From positions 186,001 through 250,000 of the forward strand of contig JACPUC010000008.1 of the NCBI GenBank assembly GCA_016192455.1: a DNA stretch of 64,000 nt, written 5' to 3'. The stretch comes from Candidatus Tectimicrobiota bacterium. GTDB lineage: Bacteria; JACPUC01. The position numbers and the translations under genes were made by a program. Under the pieces are notes generated by a model that worked only from the letters and a program-made list of their open reading frames with translations, was not told where the DNA came from and ran no database searches. Below are positions 496 through 27,156 of this stretch, in pieces (position 1 is the stretch's first letter; each line of letters begins with the position of its first letter).

Positions 496-1239
496 TCACG
501 GATAGGGATGAACAACACGCAGACCGCGCTGCGCCACGGCATCCAGCGCCAGGCGGGAGAGCTCCGGCACATCTTCCTTCATGCCAAGGATAACGAGATG
601 ATCTCCTGTGCGCACACCGCGTGGATCATCGGAGTAGTTTTCGCCGATGGCGTCTCCTTTAAGTATAAGGAAGCTCAGAACAGCATGGAGCCGCTTGCGC
701 ATAAAGTCAATAAGAGGGACCAATGCGTAACTATTTTGGTAATACTTTTTCCTTGTAATAATGTCCCCCTCACCAGGTTTTGCCCATTGAAACATGTTAA
801 TGATAATCAGCCGCCTTGACACCCGGATCAATTCACTTACTGGTCTCTCATAGTGTCGCTGATGCTCAATCACGCTCTTCACATAACTTACATCAAAAGC
901 GCCATCGGAGAAGGGGAGACGCCGGATATTTGCTTTCCTGAATTGCACCTGAGGGAACTCTTTCTTTCCCGCCCGCAGGAATTGCGAGGCACCGTCAACA
1001 ACAGTGTAGTTCGTTGCCGCCAGACCGCCCCGCGCCGCCAACATTCGCAGCTCATGACAGCTCCCTGCCCCCACCTCCAAGATCGACGAAAGACGCCGCA
1101 GGAGCATGAAGGAGACGAACCACTCACGATCGGGATGGTGATCTTCGAGATACCCGTGGGCAGGCCTTTCAGCCCAGCGTGGGTCTGGGATGAGACCAAG
1201 TGCGGCAAGATAGTTCTTCACGCGCCGAAGACCACGCAT
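496..1239 (-). CDS. Class I SAM-dependent methyltransferase
   Basis: The 247-residue product has a Rossmann SAM-binding motif I (EVGAGSC near residue 54), then an acidic strand-2 end (VVDGA) and a DGAFDVSYVKSVIEH stretch typical of Methyltransf_11/25 enzymes. The start is the ATG at 1239, directly after a strong GGGGAGGAGG ribosome binding site; a longer frame upstream reads into the previous gene and is Arg-rich noise. It is the last gene of the leftward glycan operon, 26 bases after a radical SAM gene, so its substrate is probably a sugar or glycan precursor. The acceptor cannot be deduced. Confidence 0.85.
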   Translation of the reverse strand: MRGLRRVKNYLAALGLIPDPRWAERPAHGYLEDHHPDREWFVSFMLLRRLSSILEVGAGSCHELRMLAARGGLAATNYTVVDGASQFLRAGKKEFPQVQFRKANIRRLPFSDGAFDVSYVKSVIEHQRHYERPVSELIRVSRRLIIINMFQWAKPGEGDIITRKKYYQNSYALVPLIDFMRKRLHAVLSFLILKGDAIGENYSDDPRGVRTGDHLVILGMKEDVPELSRLALDAVAQRGLRVVHPYP

Positions 1240-1265
1240 CCTCCTCCCCTTTGAGACCGGAGTCG

Positions 1266-2720
1266 TTATCGGACTGAACGCGAGTAGAGCAACCTGGGAT
1301 TGCGCTCCTTCACCACGGCAGCCCAGGCGTAGGCCGGATGCCGCACGGTGGTCGCCAGGGCGCGCCAGGCGGCTCGGACGCGACTGTAAGTGGCGCTCCG
1401 CCGCACCACGTCCTTCAACGCACGCCAGGCCAGGCCCGGGGCATAGCAGGCGTAGAGGCGCACGTGGAAGTACTTCACGAAGCGCACGATCTCGGCTTCG
1501 GAGAGGAGGTCGTTCTTGATGACACTGTGGGCGAAGTAGTTGTCGTAGTGGCCGGTCACCAGTTTCTTCTCGAAGCACTCATCGCCCAGCGCCGTGCCGC
1601 GATAGGGATAGAAGATGCTGATCTGCGCGCGCGCCGGCTTGATGCGGCGATTGAACGCCAAGGTCTTGCGCATCGTCTCCCTGGTCTCGCCCGGCACCCC
1701 CACCATGTTGAACGAGTGCATCGGAATGCCGACCTTGCGAGCCAGCTCAAAGACTTCAATGATCTGCCGGTCTTTCATCCTGCGCTTCAGGATATGCGTG
1801 CGCAGGTCTTCATCACCCGTCTCAACGCCGACCTGGATGAGACTGCACCCCATGTCCTTCAGCGCCTCCAGGACCTCGCGATCGATGGTCTCGACGCGAC
1901 CGTTGACCATGAAGTTGACGCGCTTGAGGTGCTCCGGGTAATGGTTCGCCAGCTCCAGCAGCCATTTCTTGTTGATGGTAAAGAGATCATCATCGATGAC
2001 GAAGGTGTCAAACGTGTACTCCTGAAGATCACGTTCAACCTGCCCGATGCACCACGTTGGGCTCGGCGCCCGCACGTACTCTTTCTTATTGGGAAAAACG
2101 GCGCGCAGACCGGTGCAGCCGCAGTAGCTGCAATCATAGGGACAGCCTCGCGAGAAGATGAAGCGTGGGTGCCACCTAAGGGGAACCCCGCGTTTAGCGT
2201 CGCGGAAGCGTTTGAACATCCGCCGATCTGAATAGGGGACGGTATCCAGATTCTGGACATAGTAGGAGTATGGGTTCGAGATGGTTTCACCGTTGCGTCG
2301 AAAGGTGAAGTTCGGGATGTCGTAGAAATCCTTTCCCGCCTCCATGCGGGTGACCAGCTCGAGGAGCGGTCCCTCCGCTTCGCCGACGCAGACCCCCAGG
2401 AGCTTCGGAAACTGGAAAATCTGGTTCGGCACCATGGTCACGTGCACGCCGCCGAGGATGCAGGGAACGTGTGGATACGTCGCGCTGACGTGATCGAACA
2501 GGCGCTTGATGTAGACGACCTGATGACTCTCCGCCGTGGCGGCGAAGAGATCTGGCTGGAACGCCTTGATCGTTTCGTCGACGTGCGACCAGTCGAGATC
2601 ATAGAGCTCGAGGAGCGCCGTTTCGTGCCCCGCCTCTTTGAGGACGGCGGAGAGAAACCCAAGCCCGTGGTGGTACTTGGCCCGGCAGTTGATCATCGAG
2701 AGGGCGAAGAGAACTCTCAT
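1266..2720 (-). CDS. B12-binding-domain radical SAM protein
   Basis: The 484-residue product has an N-terminal Rossmann-like region resembling a cobalamin-binding domain (residues 1-140, with ILGGVHVT near 90). A radical SAM core follows, with the 4Fe-4S ligands CPYDCSYC (Cys193, 197, 200), then VIDDDLF and the VGVETGDE strand. This architecture (COG1032) covers methylation at unreactive carbon, ring contraction and other radical rearrangements. The ATG at 2720 follows GGAGATAGAG; a GTG at 2732 is the alternative. The gene sits between a GxGPSL-motif gene and a methyltransferase in the leftward glycan operon. The substrate is unknown. Confidence 0.88.
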   Translation of the reverse strand: MRVLFALSMINCRAKYHHGLGFLSAVLKEAGHETALLELYDLDWSHVDETIKAFQPDLFAATAESHQVVYIKRLFDHVSATYPHVPCILGGVHVTMVPNQIFQFPKLLGVCVGEAEGPLLELVTRMEAGKDFYDIPNFTFRRNGETISNPYSYYVQNLDTVPYSDRRMFKRFRDAKRGVPLRWHPRFIFSRGCPYDCSYCGCTGLRAVFPNKKEYVRAPSPTWCIGQVERDLQEYTFDTFVIDDDLFTINKKWLLELANHYPEHLKRVNFMVNGRVETIDREVLEALKDMGCSLIQVGVETGDEDLRTHILKRRMKDRQIIEVFELARKVGIPMHSFNMVGVPGETRETMRKTLAFNRRIKPARAQISIFYPYRGTALGDECFEKKLVTGHYDNYFAHSVIKNDLLSEAEIVRFVKYFHVRLYACYAPGLAWRALKDVVRRSATYSRVRAAWRALATTVRHPAYAWAAVVKERNPRLLYSRSVR

Positions 2721-2869
2721 CTCTATCTCCACACCGCGTGAGGTCGTCTCCTCACGGCAGGTGAATGGGAGGACGCCGCGTGAGGTTTCAGAGGGCGGCG
2801 GTTATTGTGGCTCACGCGTAACACCCACATCGCGGCACATCATAGAGAATCATGTGCCCACACGTTACC

Positions 2870-2966: not shown

Positions 2967-3749
2967 TCAGCGATCGAGGTAACCATCCTGGTAGTACTCC
3001 TCGAACTCCGTGGGGGTGATGATGGTGAAGGGTTCGAGGCCGCGCGCCGCCATGTACTCATGGATCTGCCGCAGGAAGCGCACGTGGTAGCGGTGCGCCG
3101 TCTCGTAGTGCTCCAGGTAGGCGGCCGTGCCGGGGAGGTGCTTCGGCTCCGAGGCGGCGTTGTAGTGCAGGCGCTGGCCGCTCCGCGCCAGGCTCCCAAA
3201 GCCGTCGAGGCCGGCGACGACGATGCGCCGCGCCCCCATGACGATGGCGGCGCCAATGGAGACGATGGCGGCCGACTTGCAGCTCGCCTGGATGACGCCG
3301 TCCAGGATGTCGAAGTCGGCCTCGTTGTCGTCGCGGTACATGAGGACCTCGAAGTCCCCGGCATGGACCTGGCGGATAAAGTGCAGGGGGATGGTTGGGC
3401 TGACGAGGAGCTTCGACTTCGCCGCATCGAAGGTATGGCCGTAGTCGAGGAGGCGATGGCGGCTGGTGAAGACGTGGTAGTGGGGGTGGATGAACTCCGC
3501 GATGGTGTTGGGACCGATGGTGATCGGCTGCTCGCGCTCGATGAAGGCGTGGATCTTGGCGGCCTGCTCCCGCAGCGACGGCCCGGTGCCGAAGACCAGG
3601 AACGTGGCGCCCTGGTGGCGATCCGCATAGGCGGGCCGGTGAAGCTGGGGGTTCTCCACGGCCTTCGGCAGCGCCGGCGCCTGCCGCCGCCGCCAGAGCC
3701 GCGCCATGCTGCTGGTCGCAAACTGTTTCGCGCGGCTGAGCAAGCTCAT
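2967..3749 (-). CDS. GxGPSL-motif protein (DUF115/MptE-like)
   Basis: The 260-residue product carries a FLVFGTGPSL motif near residue 52 and a later stretch, AIVSIGAAIVMGARRIVVAGLDGFG. Both resemble the DUF115 (MptE-like) domain, where a GxGPSL loop and a lA..lGa..I.lvGlD segment recur. Members in bacteria occur in glycan and flagellin-glycosylation loci, often with no proven activity. The ATG at 3749 was chosen because the longer frame overlaps the preceding radical SAM gene. It lies 41 bases after that gene in the same direction, so the two are probably co-transcribed. Family assignment is by motif only. Confidence 0.6.
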   Translation of the reverse strand: MSLLSRAKQFATSSMARLWRRRQAPALPKAVENPQLHRPAYADRHQGATFLVFGTGPSLREQAAKIHAFIEREQPITIGPNTIAEFIHPHYHVFTSRHRLLDYGHTFDAAKSKLLVSPTIPLHFIRQVHAGDFEVLMYRDDNEADFDILDGVIQASCKSAAIVSIGAAIVMGARRIVVAGLDGFGSLARSGQRLHYNAASEPKHLPGTAAYLEHYETAHRYHVRFLRQIHEYMAARGLEPFTIITPTEFEEYYQDGYLDR

Positions 3750-3789
3750 CGGCCCGCGGCCTTCGTCCTGCCCCTCGTGGTCCCGTCGC

Positions 3790-5436
3790 TCAACCGTAGC
3801 GGTTCCTCGTCCAGGTCTTGTAGACAAAGACCATGGCCTTGAAGAAGAGGTTGGCGTAGGAGCGTTCACGCTCGATGGCGCGCTCGAGCAGCCGCACCAG
3901 GGGCATGAGGAGGCGCGGCAGGCGGATGTAGAACTGGAAGGTCTTCTGCAGCGCCATGAGCGTCCGCTTGCTGATCTGCGGCATGGTGAGGATGGTGCCG
4001 GTGCGGTAGCCGATCGGCTCCTCCTTGCCGGTGATGAAGCCTTCCTTGATGCAGAGCTCCCGCAGGGGCGAGCCGCGGTAGGGGTAGAAGAGGTTGACGT
4101 TCGTCGCCGCCGGATCGGCCTGCCGGTTCATCTCGAAGGTCTCCATGATCAGCTCGCGCGTCTCGTAGGGGAGGCCGATGATGTTGTTCGCGGTGGCGCG
4201 GATTTTCCTGTGCTGCTTCAGAATGCGGAAGGCGTCGATGATGTGCTTGTTAGTGACGTTCTTCTTCAGGACCGTGCGCCGGAACTCCTCGTTGCCGGTT
4301 TCCAGGCCGATGGCGATGTTGATGCAGCCGGAGTCCTCGAGCATCCGCGCCGTCCTCGCGGTGATCGTGCTCGCCGTGGTCTGGATGGCATAGGGCAAGC
4401 CGATGCGGCGCGTGTAGAGCGCGCAGAACTTCTCGAAACGAGCCAGCGGCATGGCGAGGAAGGTCTCGTCGTGGAAATAGGCGAGGTTGATGCCGTCAGT
4501 CTCCTTGAAGTGGGCGATCTCGTCGATCGTCAGCTCCAACGGTTTCTCGCGCAGGTTCGACTTCGGCTGCAGGCCACGGTAGATTTCGGCGTAGCCGGGC
4601 TCGATGCAGTACTGGCACTTGAAGGGACAGCCGCGCGACATCTCGAAGTTGCCCATGCGGTAGACAATGCCGCCGAGGGGCCGGTAGAGGTGGCGCTCCT
4701 CGAAGATCGACCAGTCCTGCCGCGGCAGGGTCGCCAGGTCGGTCACCGGCCGCATGGGGTTGCGGTGGACCGTGCCGTTCTGCTTCACCCACAGGTTGGC
4801 GATGCCGGCGATGTCGTCGCCCGCCGCCAGGGCGTTGCACAGCTCGACGAGGGCCGACTCCCCCTCGCCGGTGCACAAGATGTCAACGCAGTCCTCGGCG
4901 ATGACCGATTCCGGCTCCGTCGTCACCCGCACCCCGCCGAGCACCGTCGGGATGCCGAGGTCGCGCACCGCCTGCAACAGGCGCAGGGCGATCGCGTAGG
5001 TGTTCTCCACCACGGTCACGGCGATGAGGTCGGGCCGCTCCTGCAGGACGCGACGCCGGAACATCTGCTCGACATCCTCGACCCGCTGCCAATCGACGCC
5101 GTACTGGCGCAGATCAGCCTCGCGCACCTGCAGGGTGGCGTAGCGCGCCTCCTCGTCCGAGTGCTCTTCTTCGATCTTCAGGAAGGTCGTGTCGAACAGG
5201 CTCGTCCGGTGGCCGACCTGGCGCAGGCAGGCGGACAAGACGGAGAGCGCCAGGGGGATGCGGTTCGTCAGCAGGGTGTTCGGGTAGACGAAGAGGACGT
5301 GCAGAGGCCGCACCGGTTTCGCGGCGCACACCGGGGTGAGATCGGAGTTCTCCTTCCGCGTCTCTGAATCGATGAGATTCAGTGTCGCTTTCGCCTCGGC
5401 AGCGCGCGGTTGCGTTCTCTCTGCAACTCCCGCCAT
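3790..5436 (-). CDS. B12-binding-domain radical SAM protein
   Basis: The 548-residue product has an N-terminal cobalamin-binding-like Rossmann region (about residues 45-190, including VLGGVRVTTEPE). The radical SAM core carries CPFKCQYC (Cys270, 274, 277) and an IGLETGNE strand. An approximately 40-residue polar N-terminal extension precedes the first strand. The ATG at 5436 follows GAGGAG by 9 bases. It has the same domain order as the gene at 1266-2720 but is longer, so the two may act on the same glycan at different positions. The reaction is unknown; methylation or rearrangement of a sugar are options for this class. Confidence 0.87.
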   Translation of the reverse strand: MAGVAERTQPRAAEAKATLNLIDSETRKENSDLTPVCAAKPVRPLHVLFVYPNTLLTNRIPLALSVLSACLRQVGHRTSLFDTTFLKIEEEHSDEEARYATLQVREADLRQYGVDWQRVEDVEQMFRRRVLQERPDLIAVTVVENTYAIALRLLQAVRDLGIPTVLGGVRVTTEPESVIAEDCVDILCTGEGESALVELCNALAAGDDIAGIANLWVKQNGTVHRNPMRPVTDLATLPRQDWSIFEERHLYRPLGGIVYRMGNFEMSRGCPFKCQYCIEPGYAEIYRGLQPKSNLREKPLELTIDEIAHFKETDGINLAYFHDETFLAMPLARFEKFCALYTRRIGLPYAIQTTASTITARTARMLEDSGCINIAIGLETGNEEFRRTVLKKNVTNKHIIDAFRILKQHRKIRATANNIIGLPYETRELIMETFEMNRQADPAATNVNLFYPYRGSPLRELCIKEGFITGKEEPIGYRTGTILTMPQISKRTLMALQKTFQFYIRLPRLLMPLVRLLERAIERERSYANLFFKAMVFVYKTWTRNRYG

Positions 5437-5605
5437 GGGTGGTGCTCCTCTCACCTCTATGATCTCTGCCGCGCGTCGCCTGAGGCGCAGCACAGCTCGT
5501 TTCGCGTCGGTCTCGCTGCCCGGTCAGCCCTCGCTCCCCGCCTCAGCGCGTCAATCCTTTTGCCAGGGCGCCGGGCTTGTTTCGAGTATGTGAAGCCGGG
5601 GAACC

Positions 5606-6781
5606 TCACGCCACTCTCATCGCCGGGTTTTCGGAGAGGGTGCGCGACGAGGACGAGGTGTCCACCTCCGCCGCGACGCGCCGCCACTGCGGCGGGGTGT
5701 GGCCACGCCGGCGTTGCCGCAGCTTGCCGAGGAGATGGCGGCCGAGATGCCTGCCCAGGCGGAGCTGGAAGGGGGGGCGATGGAAGTTGAGGGTGAGGCC
5801 GGCGAGGATCTCGCAGAGCAGCCCACCTCCCCATCCCTGGCGCTGGCTGTGCCACACGTCGGTGCACACGCGCCGCGCGAACTCGAGCGCCTTGTCGTCC
5901 TGCCAGGCCTGGCTCAGCCCATGCCGCGCCGCGAACGCCGCGATGAGCGTCTTCACGGCGCGGCGCAGGCGGCGCAGGTCGCCGGGACGCCGCAGGACCT
6001 CGCCCGCCGTGCCGCGCTGCGCCCAGATGCGGCTGAGGACCTGGATCATCCGCGGCTCGAGGGTTGGGCAGAGATCCTGGATGGCGCGGCAGCTCAAGCG
6101 TTCGGCGTAGCCCTGGCGGCGCAGCCCTTGGGTCGAGGAGATGGAGCGCTCGTGGTGCTCGAGGTGCACGAGCACCTCGGGCAGGGCGCCGATCACGAGA
6201 CCCCGCTCCAGGGCGCGCGTCCAGAGCGCATAGTCCTGCGCCACCGGGAACGACTCGTCATACCCCCCCAGCGCGTTGAGGATCACCTCGCGGCGGAACA
6301 TCACCGTGCTGTGCCCCATCGGGTTGTCGAAGAGCATCCGCCAGCGCTGTTCGACGGCGTCCGCCGGCGGGATGCCGAGGTAGCCGGTGCTTTTGCGAAA
6401 GCCGGTGAACAGCAGGGCGCAGCGCGGGTGCGCCTGGAAGTAGCTGATCTGGCGCTCCAGCCGCTGCGGCGCTGACACGTCGTCGGCGTCCAGGCGGGCG
6501 AGGTACGTCCCCATCGCCAGCGCCAGGCCGCGATTCAGCGACCTCGTCAGGCCCAGGTTGCGCTCGTTGTCGATCAGCCTGATGCGGGGGTCGTGGTAGC
6601 TGGCGCACACCTGCCGGCTGCCGTCCGTCGAGGCGTCATTGATGATGAGGAACTCAAACTCCCGCCAGGTCTGCGCCAGCACCGACTCGATGGCGGCGGC
6701 CAGATGCGCCTCGCCGTTGTACACGCACATCAGGACGGTGACGCGGGGAACCTCGCCATTCCGGTTCGGCAGACCCTTCAC
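5606..6781 (-). CDS. Family 2 glycosyltransferase
   Basis: This 391-residue GT-A enzyme starts with VTVLMCVYNGEAHLAAAIESVLAQT, followed by FLIINDASTDGS and the metal-binding LDADD motif near residue 99. A YDESFPVAQDYALWTRAL stretch is the usual acceptor-side motif of GT2 enzymes in capsule and O-antigen clusters. A basic C-terminal region of about 100 residues follows the catalytic domain. The start is a GTG at 6781 whose last bases overlap the stop of the upstream GT4 gene (GTGA), which implies translational coupling. It probably transfers a sugar in assembly of the local repeat unit. Confidence 0.9.
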   Translation of the reverse strand: MKGLPNRNGEVPRVTVLMCVYNGEAHLAAAIESVLAQTWREFEFLIINDASTDGSRQVCASYHDPRIRLIDNERNLGLTRSLNRGLALAMGTYLARLDADDVSAPQRLERQISYFQAHPRCALLFTGFRKSTGYLGIPPADAVEQRWRMLFDNPMGHSTVMFRREVILNALGGYDESFPVAQDYALWTRALERGLVIGALPEVLVHLEHHERSISSTQGLRRQGYAERLSCRAIQDLCPTLEPRMIQVLSRIWAQRGTAGEVLRRPGDLRRLRRAVKTLIAAFAARHGLSQAWQDDKALEFARRVCTDVWHSQRQGWGGGLLCEILAGLTLNFHRPPFQLRLGRHLGRHLLGKLRQRRRGHTPPQWRRVAAEVDTSSSSRTLSENPAMRVA

Positions 6782-7884
6782 GCGCTCCCTCTCACTGCCG
6801 CGTTTCCGCCTTCCAGGAGCGCCTGGAAGACTTCGCCGTGGCGCGCGTACCAGGGTTCGCCGGCGTACCGCGTCAGGGCACGCTGCCGGGCGCGGTGGGA
6901 AAAGCCCTCATAGTCCCGTAGGAGGCGCTCGATGCCGGCGAGCACATCAGCCGGCTTCAAGGCGTACGCCACGTCCCAGTCCATCACCGAGGGCACCGCC
7001 ACCCCGGCCTCCTCCTCGCCGATCAGCTCGGGGGTGCCGCCGGTGCCGGCGCAGACGACCGGCAGCCCGCAGGCCATCGCCTCGATGACGACGGAGGGGC
7101 AGGGATCGTTGTACTTCATGTGCAGGAAGAGGTCGGCGCGCTGGTAGATCGACGGCGCTTCCGCCAGGGAGTACGGAGGAAGGAGCTCGACGCGTTCCGC
7201 CACGCCTTCCTCTTCAAGCAGCGCCGCCAGCCTCGCCGCTCCACCTTCAAAGCGCAGCTCGCCGGCGATCAGGAGCCGGGCGTCGCAGCCGCCGCGAACC
7301 AGGGCCGCCACGGCGCGCACCGCCGGCTCGAGGCGCTCAAAGCGGACGAAGACGCCGGTGGTGAGGAAGACGGGGCGCCGGGGGTCCCAGGACCGCGCCT
7401 TCCGCGGCTGGAACCGCTGCACATCCACGGCGTTGTACAGCACCTCGCCCGGGCAGGGATCGGCGCCCAGGAAGCGGCGCGCGCAGGCACGGCTGAACTC
7501 GCTCTGGTAGAGCACGTAGGCCGCCCGCTGGTAGATGCGCCGCAGACGCGCGTTCTGCCCCTCCCAGCCGTCGCCGAACCAGGCCTTGTAGTGCAGCCCG
7601 TTGGCGTTGAAGACGAGTGGGATGCCGGCGCGCGACGCCGCCGTCGCCAGACCCACGGGGCAGTAGTTGCCATTCACCGTGTAGAGGAGGTTGAAGCCGC
7701 GCGGGGTGTGGGGGAAACGCTCCGCCAGGCGCTCGATCTTGCGGCTGGGGCCGCCGGGGCCGGGCTGCCAGTAGCCGTAGTGGACCCTCGGCACGGAGGC
7801 GGCCGCCCGTCGCCGCTTCAAGGCCACCGCCAGCAATGACGGGAAACGACAGGCGAGGCGCGCGGGGAGCGCCGCCAGGCTCAT
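6778..7884 (-). CDS. Family 4 glycosyltransferase (GT-B fold)
   Basis: The 368-residue product has the C-terminal GT-B signature: RPVFLTTGVFVRFERLEPAV, LLIAGELRFEG, then the donor-binding loop PSVVIEAMACGLPVVCAGTGGTPELI with the E-x7-E-like motif. The N-terminal acceptor domain is short. An in-frame extension up to 8073 exists, but its sequence is low-complexity and unlike the family, so the ATG at 7884 is preferred despite a weak ribosome binding site. That leaves 223 bases after the regulator gene. The stop codon overlaps the start of the GT2 gene. Confidence 0.85.
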   Translation of the reverse strand: MSLAALPARLACRFPSLLAVALKRRRAAASVPRVHYGYWQPGPGGPSRKIERLAERFPHTPRGFNLLYTVNGNYCPVGLATAASRAGIPLVFNANGLHYKAWFGDGWEGQNARLRRIYQRAAYVLYQSEFSRACARRFLGADPCPGEVLYNAVDVQRFQPRKARSWDPRRPVFLTTGVFVRFERLEPAVRAVAALVRGGCDARLLIAGELRFEGGAARLAALLEEEGVAERVELLPPYSLAEAPSIYQRADLFLHMKYNDPCPSVVIEAMACGLPVVCAGTGGTPELIGEEEAGVAVPSVMDWDVAYALKPADVLAGIERLLRDYEGFSHRARQRALTRYAGEPWYARHGEVFQALLEGGNAAVRGSA

Positions 7885-8107
7885 GGGGAGGGCTGCCGGA
7901 GCGCGCCGGCGGGGCGGGCGCTGCGCGGCGACCCGCTTGAACGGACGCGCGGCCCACCCTGCACCACCATACAGCTCCGCCCCGTGAGGTACAAACGAGG
8001 TCTGCCCTCTCGCCCCGGAAACGCAGTGTGGACCGACGCACGCATGCTGCACGCTGCCGGGTGGAAGCGCCATCCCGCCGCCACCGCAGCCGCCCTACAT
8101 CTTCACG

Positions 8108-8686
8108 CTACATCTTCGCAATGCGGTCCGCCGCAATCCCCTCGGCGAGGAGACGCTCCCGGGATTGCAGCAAGGCGTCCAGCCGCGTGATCACCAGGCT
8201 GTCGAACTGCACCACCAACAGCCTGTCCAGGGGCATGACGCGGTGGCCCACACAGCGCTGGCCGACCTGCTGGTCATCCACGATGCCGACCAGCTTGAGG
8301 GGGTACTCCTGCAGGCAGAGAAAGGCGATCTCGGCCCCTTCACCCGCCCCGTAGAGGATGATGCGGGAAGCTCCCTCCCTGGCCAGTCGCTGGAAGATCA
8401 ACGAGTACTTCGTGCGGATATCCGTGATGTAGCTGATCGAGTAGCGCAGGAACTCGTAGGAGAGGCGGCTCTTCGCGATCATGCCGGCGGGGGTCAGAAT
8501 GTACTTGATGCGATTGCGCGGCAAGGTGGTGATCTTCAAGTACCCCTTCTTGATGAGGCGTTTCACAATCGCATTCGTCAGCCCGAGGGCGACCCCCAGG
8601 CGACCGGCGAGCTTGCGCTGCGAGATCTGCTCGTCCCTGTCGATCTCATCGAGGCAAATGAGCTCTCGCTGGGCGTTGACTTTCAT
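8108..8686 (-). CDS. EPS-associated MarR-type regulator with Rossmann domain
   Basis: The 192-residue product begins with a winged-helix domain (residues 1-70): ISQRKLAGRLGVALGLTNAIVKRLIKKGYLKI followed by IKYILTPAGMIAKSRL. This is the pattern of the EPS-associated MarR family. A helical linker is followed by RIILYGAGEGAEIAFLCLQ and LVGIVDD (from about residue 107), a nucleotide-binding Rossmann-like domain similar to CoA-binding or PglD-type domains. The extra domain may sense a nucleotide-sugar or cofactor. It is the first gene of the leftward glycan unit, and a promoter and inverted repeat lie just upstream. ATG at 8686 is chosen because the longer frame lacks family similarity. Confidence 0.8.
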   Translation of the reverse strand: MKVNAQRELICLDEIDRDEQISQRKLAGRLGVALGLTNAIVKRLIKKGYLKITTLPRNRIKYILTPAGMIAKSRLSYEFLRYSISYITDIRTKYSLIFQRLAREGASRIILYGAGEGAEIAFLCLQEYPLKLVGIVDDQQVGQRCVGHRVMPLDRLLVVQFDSLVITRLDALLQSRERLLAEGIAADRIAKM

Positions 8687-8760
8687 GCTACGATGCAGCT
8701 CTGGTGGGCTCGTCGGCAGGCCGTCGCAGTCGCCCACGAGGGTGGTTGCAAGAGTACACC

Positions 8761-8775
8761 GTTCAATACGTGAAC
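8761..8775. promoter_or_regulatory. Inverted repeat, candidate operator
   Basis: GTTCAATACGTGAAC is a perfect inverted repeat of GTTCA with a 5-base spacer. It sits immediately downstream of the predicted -10 box (8776-8781) of the leftward EPS regulator gene, covering the likely transcription start. This is a classic position for autorepression. No second copy was found at the divergent asnB side. Confidence 0.5.
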
Positions 8776-8804
8776 AGTATCCCCGAGCCAAGCAATCCTG
8801 TCAA
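8776..8804 (-). promoter_or_regulatory. Sigma70-type promoter of the EPS regulator operon
   Basis: On the minus strand a perfect -35 TTGACA (8799-8804) is followed by a 17-base spacer and a -10 GATACT (8776-8781). It drives transcription towards the regulator start at 8686, predicting a leader of about 80 bases. Confidence 0.6.
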
Positions 8805-19246: not shown

Positions 19247-20697
19247 TGCACGTCGTCATCCTGAACCCGCCGAACGTCGACGAGCATACCTACATCGCCC
19301 GCAGCGCCGACCGCTGGCCGCACCGGGTGGCCAAGGGCAGGCTTTTCCGCAACACCCTCTTCCCGAAGTACCCGCTCTACCTCACCTACGCCGCCGCCCT
19401 CCTCGAGCAGCACGGCTTCGAGGTCAGCATCATCGACGCCGCCGAGCGCAACTACTCGCACGCCGAGACCGTCGAGCGCATTGCGCGCTTAAGCCCGCGG
19501 CTCGTCGTCACGGAGATCGCCGAGCCCTCCCGCCTCACCGATCTGCAGACCGTGGCCGCCCTGCGCGCGGCGACGGGAGCCCATCAAACGCTCATCGGGC
19601 CGCACGCCACGGCCTTCGCCATGCCCCTCGTGCAGGAGTCCGCGGCCATCGACAGCATCTGCCGGGGGGAGTACTACGAGACCCTCCTCGACCTGGCCTG
19701 CACGCTGGATCGGGCCGCCCCCCTGGCGGCGGTGCGCGGCCTCACCTACCGGCAGGACGGGCAGCCCCGCTCCACCCCTGACCGGCCGCTCCTGAAGGAG
19801 ATCGACAAGCTCCCCTGGCCGGCGCGGCACCTCCTCGATCCGCACCGCTACCTCATGGGGCACTACACGTACAAACCACAGCTCCTGATGATGACGAGCA
19901 TCGGCTGCCCGTACCAGTGCATCTTCTGCATTTGGCCGAAGGTCCTCTACGACAGCGGCAAAGTGCGCTACCGGCACGCCGACGACGTCGCCGCCGAGGT
20001 CGAGGAGGTGGTGCAGCGCTGGGGGGCGCGCGAAATTTACTTCGATGACGACTGTTTCAACCTCAGCGAGCGGCGCGTCCTCGAGGTGTGCGACGCCATC
20101 CTCCGCCGCGGCGTCATCGTCCCCTGGATCACCGAGATGCGCTGCGACCGCGTCAGCGAGCGCATGCTCGAGCGCATGCGCGCCGCCGGCTGCATCAAGA
20201 TCCTCTACGGCGTGGAGTCGGGGAACCAGGAAATCCTCGACAACGCCAAGAAGGGCATCACCCTCGAACAGGTGCGCAGGACCTTCAAGCTGACGCGCCA
20301 GGCGGGCATCAGAACCCACGCCACCTTCATGCTCGGCCTGCCCGGCGAGACGCCGCAGACCATCGAGGCGACGATCAGCTTCGCCAAGGAGCTGGAGCCC
20401 GACACCATCCAGTGCTCCATCGCCCTCCCCTACACCGGCACGGAGTTCTACGACCTGGCGCGCGCCAACGGCACGTTGAAGGTGGACTCCTGGCTCGACT
20501 TCGACGGCGAGCTCTGCGGCGCCGTGGAGTATGCGGGGTTGTCGAAGGAGTACATCCGCGGCTCCGTAAATCGCTTCTACCGCACCTTCTACCTGCGGCC
20601 CGGGCATCTCGGGCGGCGCATCCTGAGCATCCGCACCTGGAGCGACATCGAGCGTTTCTGGCACTTCGCCAAGGGCTACCTGCGGCGCTTCTCGTAA
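19246..20697 (+). CDS. B12-binding-domain radical SAM protein
   Basis: The 483-residue product has an N-terminal cobalamin-binding-like domain (residues 1-190; LTYAAALLEQHGFEVSIIDA, IGPHATAF). The radical SAM core has CPYQCIFC (Cys221, 225, 228), IYFDDDCF and YGVESGNQEIL. It is the third leaf of the same architecture in this locus. The ATG is preceded by AAGGAG and overlaps the stop of the double GT4 gene. Position in the operon implies action on the same glycan or its nucleotide-sugar precursor. It is clearly diverged from the two leftward paralogues. Confidence 0.88.
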   Translation: MHVVILNPPNVDEHTYIARSADRWPHRVAKGRLFRNTLFPKYPLYLTYAAALLEQHGFEVSIIDAAERNYSHAETVERIARLSPRLVVTEIAEPSRLTDLQTVAALRAATGAHQTLIGPHATAFAMPLVQESAAIDSICRGEYYETLLDLACTLDRAAPLAAVRGLTYRQDGQPRSTPDRPLLKEIDKLPWPARHLLDPHRYLMGHYTYKPQLLMMTSIGCPYQCIFCIWPKVLYDSGKVRYRHADDVAAEVEEVVQRWGAREIYFDDDCFNLSERRVLEVCDAILRRGVIVPWITEMRCDRVSERMLERMRAAGCIKILYGVESGNQEILDNAKKGITLEQVRRTFKLTRQAGIRTHATFMLGLPGETPQTIEATISFAKELEPDTIQCSIALPYTGTEFYDLARANGTLKVDSWLDFDGELCGAVEYAGLSKEYIRGSVNRFYRTFYLRPGHLGRRILSIRTWSDIERFWHFAKGYLRRFS

Positions 20698-20754
20698 CGT
20701 CGCGGCGAGGTGGGTCGCGGCGGCAGTTCGCAAGCGGGATTGGAGAGAAGGAGC

Positions 20755-21936
20755 ATGGCCCCGTCGCCGCCCTTCGTGTCGTTCGTCGTCCCGACGTACA
20801 ACGCCGCGCGGCTGCTGCCCCGCTGCCTGGCGAGCATCCGCAAGCAGCGCTACCCGCGGCAGCGGTACGAGATCATCGTCGCGGACGGCCTCTCCGAGGA
20901 CGGCACGGCGGAGGTGGCCCGCGCCTTCGGAGCCACCGTCGTCTGGAACCACCGCCGCGACGCGCAGATCGGCAAGGCGTGCGGCATTGCAGCGGCGCGC
21001 GGGGAGTTCATCGCCCTCCTCGACGCCGACAATGAGATCGTCCAGGAAGACTGGCTGCCGCGCCTGCTCGAACCCCTGCTCCGTCACCCCCACGTCATGG
21101 GGGTGGAGTCGGACCTTCTGGTGCCGCCCGGCGATTACTTCATGAACCGCTATTGCGCGCTGTTGCGTCTCGAGGACCCGGTGGCCCGCTGCCTCGGCCT
21201 GCTGCGCCGGCAGGTCTCCGTGACGTGGCATGCCTCGACCCTGGCCCCGCCGGCCACGCGGAACGGTTCTCCTGCCGCGCGCTACGCCCTGCTGACGGTC
21301 AAGCCGGGGCGCGCGCCGGTATTCGGGGCGAACGGTTTCCTCTGGCGCCGGGAGGTCCTGCTTCAGGCGCCCGGCGTCGCTGCGAGCTTCGACGAAGCCG
21401 ATGCGGCGAACGCCCTGCTGCTGGCGGGACACCGCACCGTGGCCCTGGTTCCGGGCGTGGGCATTTACCACCACCACATCCGCTCCGTCGGCCAGTTCTG
21501 GCGAAAACGGCTGCGTACCGGCAGCGAGTTCCTGGCGCGCCGCCGCCGCAAGGGAGGCGGGCCGGAGCGCCTGTGGACCAGTCGCGCCGCGCGCCCGCGG
21601 CAGCTCTACGCGGTCCTGCAGCCGTTGACGCTCGTGGCGCCGCTCCTCGAGTCGCTCGACGGCCTGCGCCGCACGCGCGATCCGGCCTGGCTGGCGCACC
21701 TGCCGGTCGCCCTCGGCTCGCTGGCGATCTATGGCTTCTGCCTCCTCTTCACGGCCTTTACCGGCAGGGACCCGCAGGGCGTGCTCCAGCGCCTGCAGGC
21801 AGGCGGCTGTGACCGCCCGCCGTCAGCGAGCGGCGCGCCGGCGTCAACGCCGCCGGAGCCGTCCAATGTTCCACGTGGAACAATTGCCGCAACCCACGGC
21901 CGCCATTGGGGTTCGGCCACGGAGCTCGTCTCATGA
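20755..21936 (+). CDS. Family 2 glycosyltransferase with C-terminal membrane segment
   Basis: The 393-residue product opens with VSFVVPTYNAARLLPRCLASI, then IIVADGLSEDGT and LLDADNEI (metal-binding). A hydrophobic segment, PVALGSLAIYGFCLLFTAF, lies near residue 330 and suggests membrane attachment. The ATG at 20755 follows GGAGAGAAGGAG. The last 45 residues are Pro/Ala-rich and unlike the family; their codons contain the parS-like palindrome at 21867-21882. The stop overlaps the next start (ATGA). It probably adds one sugar in the repeat unit. Confidence 0.88.
   Translation: MAPSPPFVSFVVPTYNAARLLPRCLASIRKQRYPRQRYEIIVADGLSEDGTAEVARAFGATVVWNHRRDAQIGKACGIAAARGEFIALLDADNEIVQEDWLPRLLEPLLRHPHVMGVESDLLVPPGDYFMNRYCALLRLEDPVARCLGLLRRQVSVTWHASTLAPPATRNGSPAARYALLTVKPGRAPVFGANGFLWRREVLLQAPGVAASFDEADAANALLLAGHRTVALVPGVGIYHHHIRSVGQFWRKRLRTGSEFLARRRRKGGGPERLWTSRAARPRQLYAVLQPLTLVAPLLESLDGLRRTRDPAWLAHLPVALGSLAIYGFCLLFTAFTGRDPQGVLQRLQAGGCDRPPSASGAPASTPPEPSNVPRGTIAATHGRHWGSATELVS
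21867..21882. other. parS-like centromere site
   Basis: TGTTCCACGTGGAACA is a perfect 16-base palindrome matching the conserved bacterial ParB-binding parS consensus (TGTTnCACGTGnAACA). It lies in frame within the variable C-terminal tail of the GT2 gene, where it encodes SNVPRGT. parS sites are usually near the chromosome origin and often lie inside genes. It is the only full match found in the window. Confidence 0.75.
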
Positions 21937-22598
21937 TTGTCGGCATCATGGGCAATGACGGCACCGGCAAGACGACACTCGTTGAGGAACTGGCGCGGTG
22001 TTGCGAGGAGGCCGGCATCTCCGTCGTCATCCGCCGAGGCTTCGACCACCCGCTGCTGGCGGCGCTGCTGCGGCGATGCCCCTCGCAGCGGCTCTCCGAG
22101 GGCCGCCGACGCTACCTCGATCCAGGGGCGCCGCGGAGGTTCTGGATGCGGCTCTGGCCGTTCGCCGTCTGCCTGGAGTGCCTCATCGTGACCTGTTGGG
22201 AACGCCTCACCGCCAGGGACCGCCTCATCCTCTATGATCGCACACCGTTCGACCACCTGGTGAGCTTCGAGCACCTCGGATGCAGCAGCGCGATGGTGCG
22301 CCGCCTCTTCCTGCGCCTGCCGCGGCCACACCTCCTCATCCTCCTGGAGGCGCCGCCGCGGCTCGCCTGCCGCCGCAAAGGAGAAAACCCACGCCTGCAC
22401 CTCCCCTACCACCGCGCCCAGCAGCAGCGCTACGCGGAACTTGCCGCGGCGCTGCGCCTGCGGCCCCTGCCGACGGATCGCGACCAGGCCGCCGTCACCC
22501 TCGACGCCTGGCGCCGGATTGCGGCGCGCTGGCCTGCAACGTTTGGTTTCCTCCCACGCCCCGCGGCGGGGAATCTCTCCGGGAGCGTCCTTCTGTGA
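21933..22598 (+). CDS. Thymidylate-kinase-like P-loop protein
   Basis: The 221-residue product begins MIVGIMGNDGTGKTTL, a Walker A loop (GNDGTGKTT) at residues 7-15. LILYDRTPFDHLVSF resembles the DRxxxD motif of dTMP kinases. Both features place it with thymidylate-kinase-like P-loop kinases, and such proteins recur in capsule and O-antigen loci. The ATG overlaps the GT2 stop and the stop overlaps the next GTG start. It may phosphorylate a nucleotide or sugar used in precursor supply; the housekeeping tmk role is less likely given the context and short lid. Confidence 0.75.
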   Translation: MIVGIMGNDGTGKTTLVEELARCCEEAGISVVIRRGFDHPLLAALLRRCPSQRLSEGRRRYLDPGAPRRFWMRLWPFAVCLECLIVTCWERLTARDRLILYDRTPFDHLVSFEHLGCSSAMVRRLFLRLPRPHLLILLEAPPRLACRRKGENPRLHLPYHRAQQQRYAELAAALRLRPLPTDRDQAAVTLDAWRRIAARWPATFGFLPRPAAGNLSGSVLL

Positions 22599-23806
22599 GC
22601 CACGCCCTACTCTCCCCGCCGAAGCAAGAGAACCCCAGCCATGCCGGCGCAGACACGACCAGCGGGGGCGCCGCCACCGGGCACGCCGCGCCGCTCTCCC
22701 CGACCGCGGCTCACTCCCGGCTGACGCTGCGCCAGCGGCTCGACAGGTGGCGGCGGTTCCTCAAGGTGGGGCTGCTCCAGGGAACGACGCTGGGCAAGCG
22801 CTGGCTGCGCCCGGAGCTGCTGAGCCTGACCGTGGAGCTCTGCCGCGCCTGCAACCTGCGCTGCACCTACTGCGCCATGCACGGCGAGGTCGCCGACCGA
22901 AATCGCATCCACCTCCCCTCGACCTACTTCCTCGATCCGGCGCTCCTGGAGACGATCCTGAAGGACCTCGATGCCGCCCGCACGAAGATCCCGCTCAACC
23001 TCAGCTACAGCGGCGAGGCGCTCCTGCACCCGCGTTTCGTGGAGATCATGAACCTGCTGGGGAGGCGCGGTCACGCGTCGATCTGCGGCTTCACCACGAA
23101 CGGCATGTTGCTCGACGAGGCGCGCAGCGCCGCCATCGTGCGCAACGGCATCGGCGAGGTCTGCATCAGCGTGGACGGCGACGGCGAGGGACATGAGCTG
23201 CGCCGACGGCGCTCCGCCTACTCGCGCATCATGGCGAACGTCCTGCGCCTCATCGAGCTGCGCGACGCGGCGGGGTCGTCGCGCCCGCGCGTCACCCTGA
23301 AGGCGGTCGCCGGCGGCTGCAGCAGCGCCGACTTCGAGGCATTCTTGCAAACCTATCTCCCCAAGGTGCAGCGCATCACGCTGATCCCCGAGATCCCCGT
23401 CCATCAGCAGGTGCGGCTCCCCTACCGCGGTCTTCCTTCCTGTTCCTTCCCGTTCACCTCCCTCACCGTTGCGTCGGACGGCGCGGTGGCTCTCTGCTGC
23501 TTCGACGTCGGCGGCATGGCGGTGCGCGATCTGCGCCTGAACGTCCGCGAGCGCGGCATCCTGGAGGTGTTCCACGGCCCCGAGATGACCGCCCTGCGGC
23601 GCGCCATGCTCGAACGCCGCGCCGACGCCCTGCCGCGGCTCTGCCGCGGCTGCACCGCCTACGACACCGTGGGCGCCTTCCGGCCGGGGCGGTACGCCCT
23701 CATCGAGCGCAGCTCCGAACGCACCGTCTACACCTCCGGCATGGCGACGACCTACCTGCCCGGACGGAGAGGGCTCTTCTCCACCTTGCTGGGGCGCTGG
23801 CGGTAG
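22595..23806 (+). CDS. Radical SAM/SPASM protein
   Basis: The 403-residue product has CNLRCTYC (Cys86, 90, 93) after LTVELCRA, then SYSGEALLHPRFVEIMNLL and a glycine-rich ISVDGDGEG strand. A C-terminal SPASM-type region carries ALCCFDVGG and LCRGC. The start is a GTG overlapping the kinase-like gene stop by 4 bases (GTGA). It is the last gene of the rightward operon. SPASM enzymes include peptide maturases and sugar dehydrogenases or epimerases, so a role in sugar modification is plausible. It is a different type from the three B12-domain paralogues. Confidence 0.88.
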   Translation: MSHALLSPPKQENPSHAGADTTSGGAATGHAAPLSPTAAHSRLTLRQRLDRWRRFLKVGLLQGTTLGKRWLRPELLSLTVELCRACNLRCTYCAMHGEVADRNRIHLPSTYFLDPALLETILKDLDAARTKIPLNLSYSGEALLHPRFVEIMNLLGRRGHASICGFTTNGMLLDEARSAAIVRNGIGEVCISVDGDGEGHELRRRRSAYSRIMANVLRLIELRDAAGSSRPRVTLKAVAGGCSSADFEAFLQTYLPKVQRITLIPEIPVHQQVRLPYRGLPSCSFPFTSLTVASDGAVALCCFDVGGMAVRDLRLNVRERGILEVFHGPEMTALRRAMLERRADALPRLCRGCTAYDTVGAFRPGRYALIERSSERTVYTSGMATTYLPGRRGLFSTLLGRWR

Positions 23807-23961: not shown

Positions 23962-24792
23962 TCAGGCCGCCGCCGGGCCGGCGTCGCTCGATTCAGGATG
24001 GCTCACGGGAGCGTGCGAGCCGCGGCGTTGAGCAAGCAAGGTGAGCTGCCGCGGCGGCAGGCGGCGCGCCGCAAGGGCATCGAACGCGCGCCACGTCCCG
24101 AAGGGCAGGAAGCTGAGAGCGTTCGATCCGAAGGCGAGGGCGCGATAGAGCCAGTAGCGTGCGGGCAGCTCAAGGAGCGTCAGGAAACGGTTGTTGGCGC
24201 AAGCGGCGACAACCTCCAGGCCGGCCTGCGCGAGCGTCTGCGTGAGGCTCTCCCAGGTGAACTTGTGGACGTGGAGCGGATTGAAGAAGCCGATGCGCCG
24301 CTCCCGGCAGTAGGGGTGGCGCGCCTCGTTCGTTGGGACCTGGACGACGAGGAGCCCGGCCGGCGCCAGCCAACCGCAGAGCTGCGAGATCATGCCCGCG
24401 GCATCGTCGAGGTGCTCGAGCACGTGGGCCATGATGATGAGGTCGAACCGGCCTTGCGGCCGCCGCACCTCGCCGAGCGACGCCGCCGCCTGGAAGGAGG
24501 CGACGCGGCGGCGCGACGCCATCGCCCCAGCATAGGCGCGCGCCGACTCGGCAACGTCCACGAGCGCGAGGTGCGCCCGTGGGAAGGTGAAGAGGAGCGT
24601 GGTAACACCAGCGCCGATCTCCAGGATATGCCGACCCTCCCACGCTCGTCGCTGCTGCGCCAGCAGGTGGCGGATCGTCGCCGTGTGCATGCGGCTGGCG
24701 AAGCTGAGCCGGGAGATGAGGGCGCGCCGCCGCCAGTAGGCGTCGAAGAAAACCCGATTCGATTCGCACACGGAATCCTGCAGGTTCCCCAA
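23962..24792 (-). CDS. Class I SAM-dependent methyltransferase
   Basis: The 276-residue product has ILEIGAGVTTLLF (SAM motif I, near residue 56), ALVDVAES, FDLIIMAHVLEHLDD and LAPAGLLVVQVPT, the Methyltransf_23 pattern. The start is uncertain. A TTG at 24792 has GGGGGA eight bases upstream; a GTG at 24771 is the alternative. It is convergent with the preceding operon and divergent from the GT-C gene. The likely acceptor is a glycan or lipid-linked sugar. Confidence 0.82.
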   Translation of the reverse strand: MGNLQDSVCESNRVFFDAYWRRRALISRLSFASRMHTATIRHLLAQQRRAWEGRHILEIGAGVTTLLFTFPRAHLALVDVAESARAYAGAMASRRRVASFQAAASLGEVRRPQGRFDLIIMAHVLEHLDDAAGMISQLCGWLAPAGLLVVQVPTNEARHPYCRERRIGFFNPLHVHKFTWESLTQTLAQAGLEVVAACANNRFLTLLELPARYWLYRALAFGSNALSFLPFGTWRAFDALAARRLPPRQLTLLAQRRGSHAPVSHPESSDAGPAAA

Positions 24793-25125
24793 CGGTCTGT
24801 TCCCCCGTATTCAACGATCGTGACGTTGCTCGCGTTGTGGAGAAGCAAGACCCATGCCCAGACGACCGCGCCCGAGGCGGTGCGCGCCGCGTGAGATGCG
24901 GGGCCGCCAGCCGCGCCGCCTCGAACGGTCGCCGGGGCGCCCTCAACCCCCGCGCGCTTCCATCCCGAGCCCTGCCCAAGCGACGCAGCAGACGCGCGCG
25001 TCTTGGCCGCTCATGGAACGAAGCTTGCACAGCGCAGAGGCGCGCCGCGTCGATGCCTGAAGGATTCCCCGCACGCTCGCGGCTGGCGCGCACACCCGTC
25101 CTTCTCTCACGCAGCGAGGCCGCGC

Positions 25126-27156
25126 ATGCCCTGGCTCTCCCTGACGCTCGTCCTTGGCGCCTCCTTGGCGCTCTGGCTGCCGTTCCTCTCGACGCCGCTG
25201 TTTCCCGACCAGGGGCTCTTCAACTACCAGGCGAGCCGCTGGCGGCGTGGCTTCCTCCCCTACCGCGACACGCCGACGAACCTCGGCATCGGTTTGCTGG
25301 CGATGGTGGCGCTCGCCCAAGTGCTGTCGCGCGGCGGGCTGCGCCGCTACAACGCCTGCGTGGCCCTCACCAGCACCGCCACGACGCTCTTCGTCTTCCT
25401 CATCGGGCGCGAGCTCGGCGGTCCGCAGCTCGCCGTCGCCGCGGCGCTCGCCTACGCCCTCTACGCCGTGGCCCCGTACCTGGAAGGTTACACGGGAAAC
25501 CAGGAGACCTTCATGAACCTGCCGCTGACGGCGGCGGTCTACCTCCTGCTGCGCGCCGGCAGCGGCGGCCCGGCGATGCTCGCGGCGCTGGCCGGCGCCG
25601 CCGGCGCATTGGCGGCCCTGGTCAAGCCGGTGGCGGCGTTCACGATCCTGCCGCTGCACGTCTGGGCCGTGACGGTCCTCAGCGGCGAAGCACTCCTGTG
25701 GCTGCTGGGCGGGGACATGCTGATGCTCGGCGGCTCCCTTGCCGGTCTGGTGGCCCGCGGCGCGTGGGAAGGGGTGCGGCGCCAGTTCCTGCGGGTGAAC
25801 CTGATCGGGCAGTTCCGCCATCAGTATGGGACGAAGCGCCGGCCCGGCATGCCCCAGGCGCTGCCGTCGCGCTGGCGGCTCTGCCTGCGGCCGCTGCTCC
25901 TGGCGCTTGCGCCGCTGCTCCTGCTGGGCTTGGCCGGCGCCCTCCAGCTCCTGGCGGCTGGTTCCCGCACGACGGGCGCGCTTCTTGCCCTCTGGCTGAT
26001 CGGCACGTTCGCCGGCGCCAGTTTCAAGTGGCGCTTCAATCACTACTACTTCGTACAGGTGGTGCCTCCCCTGGCGGTTCTCAGCGGCATCGCCGTGGAG
26101 GCGATCCGCAGCGGGCTGAGCAGCGGCGCCGGCACCGGCCTTACCACCGCGAGCACGGCCATCCTCGGCCTGGGCGCGGCCCTTGTGGCGGCGCTTGTCC
26201 TGAGCGGACGCCACTACCTGCCACAGCCGGCGCGCCGGCGCGCGGAGCGGCTCTACGGTACGGAGGATCCCCATGTCACCGAGGGATTCAGCGCCGCCGC
26301 CCTGGCGGAGCAGGTGGAGCGCTCCAGCGCCCCGCGCGAGCGCGTCCTCTGCGCCGGCTACTCGTGCGCCATCCCCTACCTGGCAGGGCGGGATGCCAGC
26401 TTCCACACCATGGCGCCGATCTTCCCCTTCGCCGCCACGACGAGCTACGTCGAGGAGCGTCAGCGCGAGCTGGCGGCGCAGCCGCCCCGCTTCATCGTGC
26501 ATGCCTCGCCGCGGTTCGACCTCAGCGCCTTCGAGGCCCAGACAAAGCTCGCCTATCGGCTGGTGGCGGGGCAGCCGGGGGTACGCCTCCTGCGCGCCGT
26601 GAGCCTCGATGCGAGCGCGGCGGCGGCATGGCGCGAGGGGGAAGCGCTCCTCACCCGGGACCGTCCCGCCGACGCAGCAGCGGCATTCCAGAAGGCGCTG
26701 CGGCACGATCCAGCCTGCGGCGAGGCTCGCAGGGGATCGGCTGTGGCGGCGCTTCGCCTGGGCCGGACCGACGAGGCTCTGGAGACGGCGCGCGGCGCGC
26801 TTGCCGGGATGGCTGATTGCACGCTTGCGGGCGAGCTCGCCTGCGTCGTGGGGGTCGGCCTCCTGGCTGAGGGGAAGATTGACGCGGCGCTGCCAAACCT
26901 GGAACGCGCCGCACGCCTCCTTCCCGCGATGCCGGAGCCGGCGCTCCAGCTCGCCGCGCTCTATCTGCAGCTCGACCGGCCGCGTGAGGCGCTCGAGAGA
27001 GCTGAGCAGCTCGCGGTCCAGATTTCCGCCCACGACTCCGACGCCGCCAATGCCGCGCGGAACCAGATCGAGCTGCTGCGGCAGAGGGCGCTGCACGCGC
27101 TCGGCGAGGCGGGGCGGGTGAGTTCCCCAGGCTCCTCCCACCCCTCTTCCACGTAA
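25126..27156 (+). CDS. GT-C membrane glycosyltransferase with TPR domain
   Basis: The 676-residue product has a hydrophobic N-terminal half with about nine membrane segments. The first periplasmic loop contains FPDQGLFNYQ, and ALVKPVAAF and FKWRFNHYYFVQVVPPLAVL follow, as in PMT/ArnT-like enzymes using polyprenyl-phosphate sugars. The soluble C-terminus from about residue 535 contains TPR repeats (WREGEALLTRDRPADAAAAFQKALRHDP). The ATG at 25126 follows GAGG by 7 bases; longer frames have no membrane start. It probably transfers a sugar or modifies glycan on the periplasmic face. Confidence 0.8.
   Translation: MPWLSLTLVLGASLALWLPFLSTPLFPDQGLFNYQASRWRRGFLPYRDTPTNLGIGLLAMVALAQVLSRGGLRRYNACVALTSTATTLFVFLIGRELGGPQLAVAAALAYALYAVAPYLEGYTGNQETFMNLPLTAAVYLLLRAGSGGPAMLAALAGAAGALAALVKPVAAFTILPLHVWAVTVLSGEALLWLLGGDMLMLGGSLAGLVARGAWEGVRRQFLRVNLIGQFRHQYGTKRRPGMPQALPSRWRLCLRPLLLALAPLLLLGLAGALQLLAAGSRTTGALLALWLIGTFAGASFKWRFNHYYFVQVVPPLAVLSGIAVEAIRSGLSSGAGTGLTTASTAILGLGAALVAALVLSGRHYLPQPARRRAERLYGTEDPHVTEGFSAAALAEQVERSSAPRERVLCAGYSCAIPYLAGRDASFHTMAPIFPFAATTSYVEERQRELAAQPPRFIVHASPRFDLSAFEAQTKLAYRLVAGQPGVRLLRAVSLDASAAAAWREGEALLTRDRPADAAAAFQKALRHDPACGEARRGSAVAALRLGRTDEALETARGALAGMADCTLAGELACVVGVGLLAEGKIDAALPNLERAARLLPAMPEPALQLAALYLQLDRPREALERAEQLAVQISAHDSDAANAARNQIELLRQRALHALGEAGRVSSPGSSHPSST

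Follow-up and report, generated by a model that had tools for sequence, protein, structure and literature searches.

A surface-glycan locus of a Candidatus Tectimicrobiota bacterium with five putative carbohydrate-tailoring radical SAM enzymes

Introduction

Why would a surface-glycan locus hold five radical S-adenosylmethionine (SAM) enzymes, and do they act on the glycan? The question is raised by a stretch of 64,000 nucleotides (the window) from a Candidatus Tectimicrobiota bacterium (assembly GCA_016192455.1, contig JACPUC010000008.1, positions 186,001 to 250,000 of the forward strand). Five radical SAM (rSAM) genes, rSAM1 to rSAM5, all of them open reading frames, lie within positions 1266-23806 of the window among genes of polysaccharide assembly. 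A sequence-only reading of the window had taken this set as a sign of either a radical-modified glycan or peptide modification coupled to glycan assembly. We assign a probability of about 0.65 to the first kind of answer: rSAM1 to rSAM5 would tailor carbohydrates for a surface glycan whose locus spans more than 40 kb. Their reactions, substrates and order of action we infer from sequence.

Results

Clustering of the radical SAM genes

The five genes, beginning at 1266, 3790, 13871, 19246 and 22595, are all real. Each encodes a CxxxCxxC motif and gives a significant Pfam Radical_SAM match. The source assembly (4.46 Mb in 31 contigs) has 32 PF04055 matches genome-wide, and 5 of the 32 are inside 22.5 kb of the glycan locus, where 0.16 would be expected (Poisson P 8e-7; about 6e-4 once any start point is allowed for). 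The richness that had been called unusual is thus borne out for this genome. Three of the five B12-domain rSAM genes of the whole genome sit here.

A cluster of this kind could also be a gathering of unrelated housekeeping or stray genes, brought together by chance or mosaic transfer and without joint function. Base composition favors such a history. The G+C content at third codon positions (GC3) is strongly unequal, at 0.45 for rSAM3, 0.80 for rSAM1 and 0.91-0.94 for the other rSAM genes, with most neighbors of rSAM3 at 0.80-0.94. Because these values differ so strongly, the rSAM genes were probably acquired at different times, and the low GC3 of rSAM3 relative to its neighbors would mark a recent acquisition. 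A locus with the same gene order was also not found among the loci of other lineages examined. The exact five-gene block that had been proposed as support was not seen in the unrelated lineages compared, where the set of classes recurs and the gene order does not; the genome is the only one of its phylum in the comparison set. Against a chance gathering stand the clustering probability, the co-occurrence of the same rSAM classes in Solidesulfovibrio, in genomes G071 and G086 and in others, and the subfamily models, in which none of the five reaches the cutoff of a housekeeping family. We consider it quite unlikely that the five genes have no function in common.

Two further rSAM genes were seen outside the glycan locus. 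A sixth of the window, at 38219-39400 on the plus strand, is near the Rv2578c and PA0069 families and below their cutoffs. On contig C3 of the same genome, a B12-domain rSAM gene (L042:6085-7551) has an unusual Cx4Cx2C cluster motif (CAKNACTFC) and is flanked by long open reading frames with glycosyltransferase matches. As to overall base composition, G+C is about 0.45 in the rSAM3 gene (region 13871-15566) and 0.54 at 40001-42000, versus about 0.67 elsewhere in the window; these two low-G+C stretches hint at recent insertions.

The twitch pair rSAM3 and rSAM5

rSAM3 (13871-14848, minus strand) and rSAM5 (22595-23806, plus strand; PF04055 3.9e-12 and SPASM 1.8e-9 in the longer open reading frame) both match Pfam SPASM, yet neither has the seven-cysteine SPASM motif CX9-15GX4C-gap-CX2CX5CX3C-gap-C (PMC6231123). 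Instead, CxxxCxxC and exactly four invariant tail cysteines are present in all 15 aligned proteins (rSAM3, rSAM5 and 13 relatives). The pair, previously labeled SPASM-type, is thus better described as having a four-cysteine twitch tail.

The solved protein closest to rSAM3 is BtrN, the 2-deoxy-scyllo-inosamine dehydrogenase of butirosin biosynthesis, which resembles it at full length. BtrN (4m7s) is matched with a phmmer expectation value (E) of 6.9e-34 across rSAM3 residues 71-309 (239 residues), while all other solved chains score E 0.01 or worse against rSAM3 alone. The two proteins share 79 of 234 aligned residues (33.8%). All seven cluster cysteines of BtrN (Cys16, 20, 23, 169, 187, 232 and 235, three plus four) are conserved, with rSAM3 Cys 237, 254, 296 and 299 lined up with BtrN 169, 187, 232 and 235. 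Also conserved are BtrN Tyr62, Arg152 and Glu189, which we take to be residues with active-site roles; Tyr90 and Phe188 are replaced. A profile built from 11 relatives, with rSAM3 left out, again finds BtrN as the best solved chain (5.8e-33 vs 5e-19 for MoaA), and rSAM5 belongs to the same wider family. BtrN carries out a two-electron oxidation of the aminocyclitol 2-deoxy-scyllo-inosamine, in which an electron probably goes to its auxiliary cluster, a fully ligated one with four cysteines (PMC9012708). By this similarity, rSAM3 is predicted to oxidize an alcohol group of a sugar or cyclitol to a ketone.

Beyond the two replaced residues, rSAM3 differs from BtrN in being encoded among genes for a polysaccharide. 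The genome shows no separate 2-deoxy-scyllo-inosose synthase, so BtrN's own substrate is unlikely and a different cyclitol or sugar is likelier. The 2-deoxystreptamine (butirosin) pathway itself was considered and rejected, as the genome has a single gene of the DHQ-synthase family.

The Pfam SPASM match, together with weak matches to maturase models for ribosomally synthesized and post-translationally modified peptides (RiPPs), could instead mean that the twitch enzymes mature a RiPP-like peptide that is later glycosylated or attached to the glycan. This was the second option of the sequence-only reading. We find it very unlikely. It is disfavored because the seven-cysteine motif is missing, with four tail cysteines in every protein compared, and because, among solved proteins, BtrN is by a wide margin the nearest to rSAM3 and to the family profile. 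Neither a PqqD nor an RRE domain occurs among the annotated neighbors, and relatives of the pair are located inside heptosyltransferase and Wzx/Wzy operons.

The B12-domain trio rSAM1, rSAM2 and rSAM4

The other three genes are rSAM1 (1266-2732, minus strand; PF04055 6.6e-21, PF02310 4.3e-12), rSAM2 (3790-5493, minus strand; PF04055 1.4e-20, PF02310 1e-12) and rSAM4 (19246-20697, plus strand). In each, a B12-binding domain (PF02310) above the Pfam cutoff lies N-terminal to the radical SAM core, in agreement with the earlier assignment. By domain make-up these are predicted cobalamin-dependent radical SAM enzymes.

No NCBIfam cutoff is reached by any of rSAM1 to rSAM5. The best model for rSAM4 is HpnJ (TIGR03471), at 300.4 bits with a cutoff of 577.6, and HpnJ is also best for rSAM1 (131 bits). 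The AprD4 family (NF033070) gives rSAM4 139.2 bits, below its cutoff of 500. TIGR04295 (B12_rSAM_oligo, cutoff 400) gives 49.7 bits for rSAM1, 81.5 for rSAM2 and 99.5 for rSAM4. Among solved proteins, AprD4, the radical SAM 1,2-diol dehydratase of apramycin biosynthesis, is the best sequence relative of all three (1.8e-20 for rSAM1, 3.2e-30 for rSAM4). It is also the closest fold of rSAM4: an AlphaFold model of rSAM4 (pLDDT 84) reaches Z 33.9 against the AprD4-paromamine complex, across 419 residues, and 30.3 against MgmA.

A tree of 46 proteins divides the trio. rSAM1 and rSAM2 fall in clade A, an eight-row clade with support 100/98, and rSAM4 falls in clade B. rSAM2 is joined there by two rSAM genes from a Wzx/Wzy operon of another genome (L060; support 99/87). 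A clade-A or sister gene is also present in five clade-B loci (L019, L024/L025, L028/L029, L031 and L032/L033); this co-occurrence is only suggestive because the loci were chosen for their clade-B genes.

Since HpnJ is the best family of rSAM4, at 300 bits, and works on hopanoid-linked glucosamine (PMC12583986), the B12-domain enzymes might modify a membrane lipid or glycolipid of hopanoid-like type and not a polysaccharide. We judge this unlikely. rSAM4 misses the HpnJ cutoff of 578, no annotated gene of the locus is recognized as a hopanoid gene, and homologs are found with glycosyltransferases, Wzx and AsnB.

Recurrence in other genomes

Capsule loci had been said to carry normally none or one rSAM gene. 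This does not hold generally. At least three B12-domain rSAM genes lie within about 25 kb in 6 of 78 sampled genomes (sample reading plus follow-up of loci), and the rfb region of plasmid pBHWA1 of the cultured species Brachyspira hyodysenteriae (NC_012226.1; L110:10855-20028) holds six BtrN-like, four-cysteine-tail twitch rSAM genes among rfb and glycosyltransferase genes. The Brachyspira region differs from the window locus in that no B12-domain rSAM gene was seen there. The genome paper for this species treats the rfb genes without mention of radical SAM.

Similar neighbors recur around these genes. The Pfam families met most often in 116 proteins next to rSAM4-like genes are Radical_SAM (15), GT2 (13), B12 (10), Epimerase (6) and GT4 (6). 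One contig (G071:C40) has a Wzx flippase, AsnB, a methyltransferase, GT2 enzymes, DegT, four B12-domain rSAM genes, a twitch rSAM gene and a fusion of GT2 with rSAM. In a locus of Omnitrophota (L015), a GT2-rSAM fusion and four more rSAM genes are near its B12-domain rSAM gene. Locus L060 is a strand-uniform run with four rSAM genes, in the order twitch, B12, twitch, GT4, B12, Wzy, Wzx, and most of its genes overlap by a few bases. A twitch rSAM gene lies between three heptosyltransferase (GT9) genes in a locus of lipopolysaccharide (LPS)-core type (L064:3113-9019, G020:C19). In L061 and on a Lawsonia plasmid, a BtrN-like gene adjoins DegT, and AsnB is also there. Fusions of a GT2 glycosyltransferase with radical SAM were observed in two unrelated genomes (L029:1015-2637 and L015:1579-3495).

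A strict cutoff (E 1e-45) leaves BtrN-like genes in 146 of the 386 genomes sampled, and many of these genes lie next to LPS heptosyltransferases or Wzx/Wzy genes. For 20 BtrN-like loci drawn from different families, a glycosyltransferase, epimerase, DegT, AsnB or Wzx lies within about 9 kb in 14; of 20 control stretches taken from these genomes, 3 have such a gene (P 5e-4). The controls are contig starts, several of them short, which weakens this test. Counting glycosyltransferases only, the figures are 8/20 and 3/20 (P 0.08), and a GT9 gene is present in five of the 20 loci. A B12-domain rSAM gene was near the BtrN-like gene in 5/8 of a first sample; in the second it was clearly so in 3/20, and in 5/20 with weak matches, versus 1/20 controls. 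Because this pairing is weaker in the second sample, we place weight on the glycan linkage and not on the pairing.

BtrN-like genes were also seen in other settings. On plasmid pHS1 of Sodalis praecaptivus (L112:6175-9696), one is beside genes for a 2-deoxy-scyllo-inosose synthase, a glycosyltransferase and ABC transporters, a possible aminocyclitol pathway on an enterobacterial plasmid. BtrN-like radical SAM proteins turn up in Campylobacter phages too, and two carry the annotation BtrN.

The surrounding glycan locus

The glycosyltransferases, three methyltransferases, Wzy-like protein and AsnB-type amidotransferase of the sequence-only reading are all present. At the left edge, a methyltransferase (499-1242, minus strand; Methyltransf_11 3.8e-11, GC3 0.57) precedes rSAM1. 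Between rSAM1 and rSAM2 is an MptE-like/DUF115-type protein, possibly a glycosyltransferase (2967-3752, minus; Pfam MptE-like 4e-5, under its cutoff). rSAM2 is followed on the minus strand by a GT2 glycosyltransferase (5606-6781; Pfam 5.3e-32), a GT4 glycosyltransferase (6778-8073; Pfam 1.6e-20) and a winged-helix regulator resembling MarR_EPS (8108-8791; HTH_24 2.8e-9; TIGR04176 53.7 bits, cutoff of 88 not reached). On the plus strand are the AsnB-type amidotransferase (8900-10801; Asn_synthase 3.6e-83; 488 bits against the XrtA-system amidotransferase model, whose cutoff of 817 is not reached), the Wzy/O-antigen-ligase-like membrane protein (10878-12782; Wzy_C 4.4e-19) and a second methyltransferase (12799-13638; Methyltransf_24 5.6e-26).

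Past rSAM3, the plus strand continues with an uncharacterized nucleotidyltransferase (15567-16766; NTP_transf_5 3.4e-10) and a tandem GT4-GT4 glycosyltransferase (16763-19246; Glyco_trans_1_4 in two stretches, 9.3e-47) directly before rSAM4. A second GT2 enzyme (20710-21936; Pfam 1e-24) and a thymidylate-kinase-like P-loop protein overlapping the rSAM5 start (21906-22598; Thymidylate_kin 8.6e-7) separate rSAM4 from rSAM5. The third methyltransferase (23962-24792, minus; Methyltransf_23 1.3e-15) and a membrane glycosyltransferase-like (PMT_2) protein with TPR repeats (25003-27156, plus; PMT_2 1.9e-4) follow.

Upstream, the locus runs past the window edge for at least 20 kb. That stretch (L001) holds a second AsnB, GT4 enzymes, an ABC protein resembling an exporter or flippase, and methyltransferases, as well as epimerases, a D-2-hydroxyacid dehydrogenase, an HAD phosphatase and a CMP-NeuNAc-synthetase-like protein. 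A DegT transaminase, nearest to 8-amino-Kdo transaminase, and an inositol-3-phosphate synthase homolog are also encoded there. The genome-wide PF04055 search found no further rSAM gene in these 20 kb.

Discussion

The idea of a radical-modified glycan stands at the level of enzyme class, through the nearest characterized relatives BtrN, AprD4 and HpnJ, whose substrates are sugars or cyclitols, the glycan loci of relatives elsewhere and the two GT2 fusions; its peptide-modification alternative is not supported. Several points weigh against carbohydrate tailoring by these enzymes. The single-sequence match of rSAM5 to BtrN is weak (8e-4), and the structure model of rSAM3 was poor (four sequences, pLDDT 50) and was not used. 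rSAM4 is under every family cutoff, and AprD4-like folds carry out differing chemistry. The genome has one DHQ-synthase-family gene, and rSAM3 is 30 kb away from the DegT of the locus. A network analysis also warns that twitch/SPASM similarity is a poor predictor of function (PMC6231123).

If the five enzymes do tailor carbohydrates, a pathway can be proposed. In rSAM3 and rSAM5, a sugar or cyclitol would lose the hydrogen of a carbinol carbon to a 5'-deoxyadenosyl radical and the second electron to the enzyme's single auxiliary [4Fe-4S] cluster, giving a ketone. The DegT transaminase or a short-chain dehydrogenase/reductase could then use the ketone for transamination or reduction. rSAM4, of AprD4/HpnJ type, may deoxygenate, rearrange or C-methylate an amino sugar, and for rSAM1 and rSAM2, of the other B12-domain clade, C-methylation or rearrangement is most likely. 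Candidate substrates are nucleotide-linked or lipid-linked sugars and the inositol supplied by the synthase encoded upstream. For AsnB, a possible role is the amidation of a uronic acid. The GT2 and GT4 enzymes would join the products, and the Wzy-like and ABC proteins would export or polymerize them.

In a more specific version, which we consider unlikely, the surface polysaccharide would contain aminocyclitol or carbocyclic (ring-contracted) residues built by radical chemistry. The upstream-encoded inositol-3-phosphate synthase and DegT would feed the BtrN-like oxidase, and HpnJ-like enzymes would remodel amino-sugar rings on the chain. To our knowledge, such radical-built aminocyclitol or ring-contraction chemistry is known only from antibiotics and hopanoids.

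A close parallel to the window locus is a glycan region on plasmid pDCAR1 of Solidesulfovibrio carbinolicus, where three B12-domain rSAM genes, one BtrN-like twitch rSAM gene, AsnB, glycosyltransferases and CMP-sugar genes lie within about 37 kb. It differs in gene order, in being plasmid-borne and in its genes of sialic/pseudaminic-acid type. No description of it as an rSAM system was found in the literature searched. Moenomycin, unlike the window locus, belongs to antibiotic production in Streptomyces; its pathway also has an AsnB-type amidotransferase and glycosyltransferases. Its C-methyltransferase MoeK5 is likewise a B12-domain rSAM enzyme in glycolipid assembly (PMC8992657), a likeness drawn from description and not from sequence. 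HpnJ acts in cyclitol ether formation on bacteriohopanetetrol, with bacteriohopanetetrol glucosamine as its substrate, and is with MoeK5 the nearest precedent for radical chemistry on lipid-linked sugars (PMC12583986, PMC8992657). The nearest literature on a capsule locus concerns a single rSAM gene in Campylobacter (PMC8743553).

The kinds of enzyme are thus already known, and their wide use, several at once, in surface-glycan loci is undescribed in the literature searched. We found no account of multi-rSAM glycan loci in the open-access literature, and an earlier description elsewhere is possible. Rather than being unique, the window locus illustrates well a kind of locus that is widespread. 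As similar sets occur in many unrelated bacteria, radical remodeling of surface sugars is suggested to be common but unstudied. BtrN-like and AprD4/HpnJ-like enzymes would move from an antibiotic and hopanoid niche to everyday cell-surface chemistry. S. carbinolicus DSM 3852 is cultured and has nearly the same gene set, so the proposal is directly testable. If surface-sugar tailoring is true, a large uncharacterized part of the radical SAM superfamily would gain a testable role, and residues that standard sugar analysis would overlook should be present in the glycans of anaerobes and of uncultured phyla.

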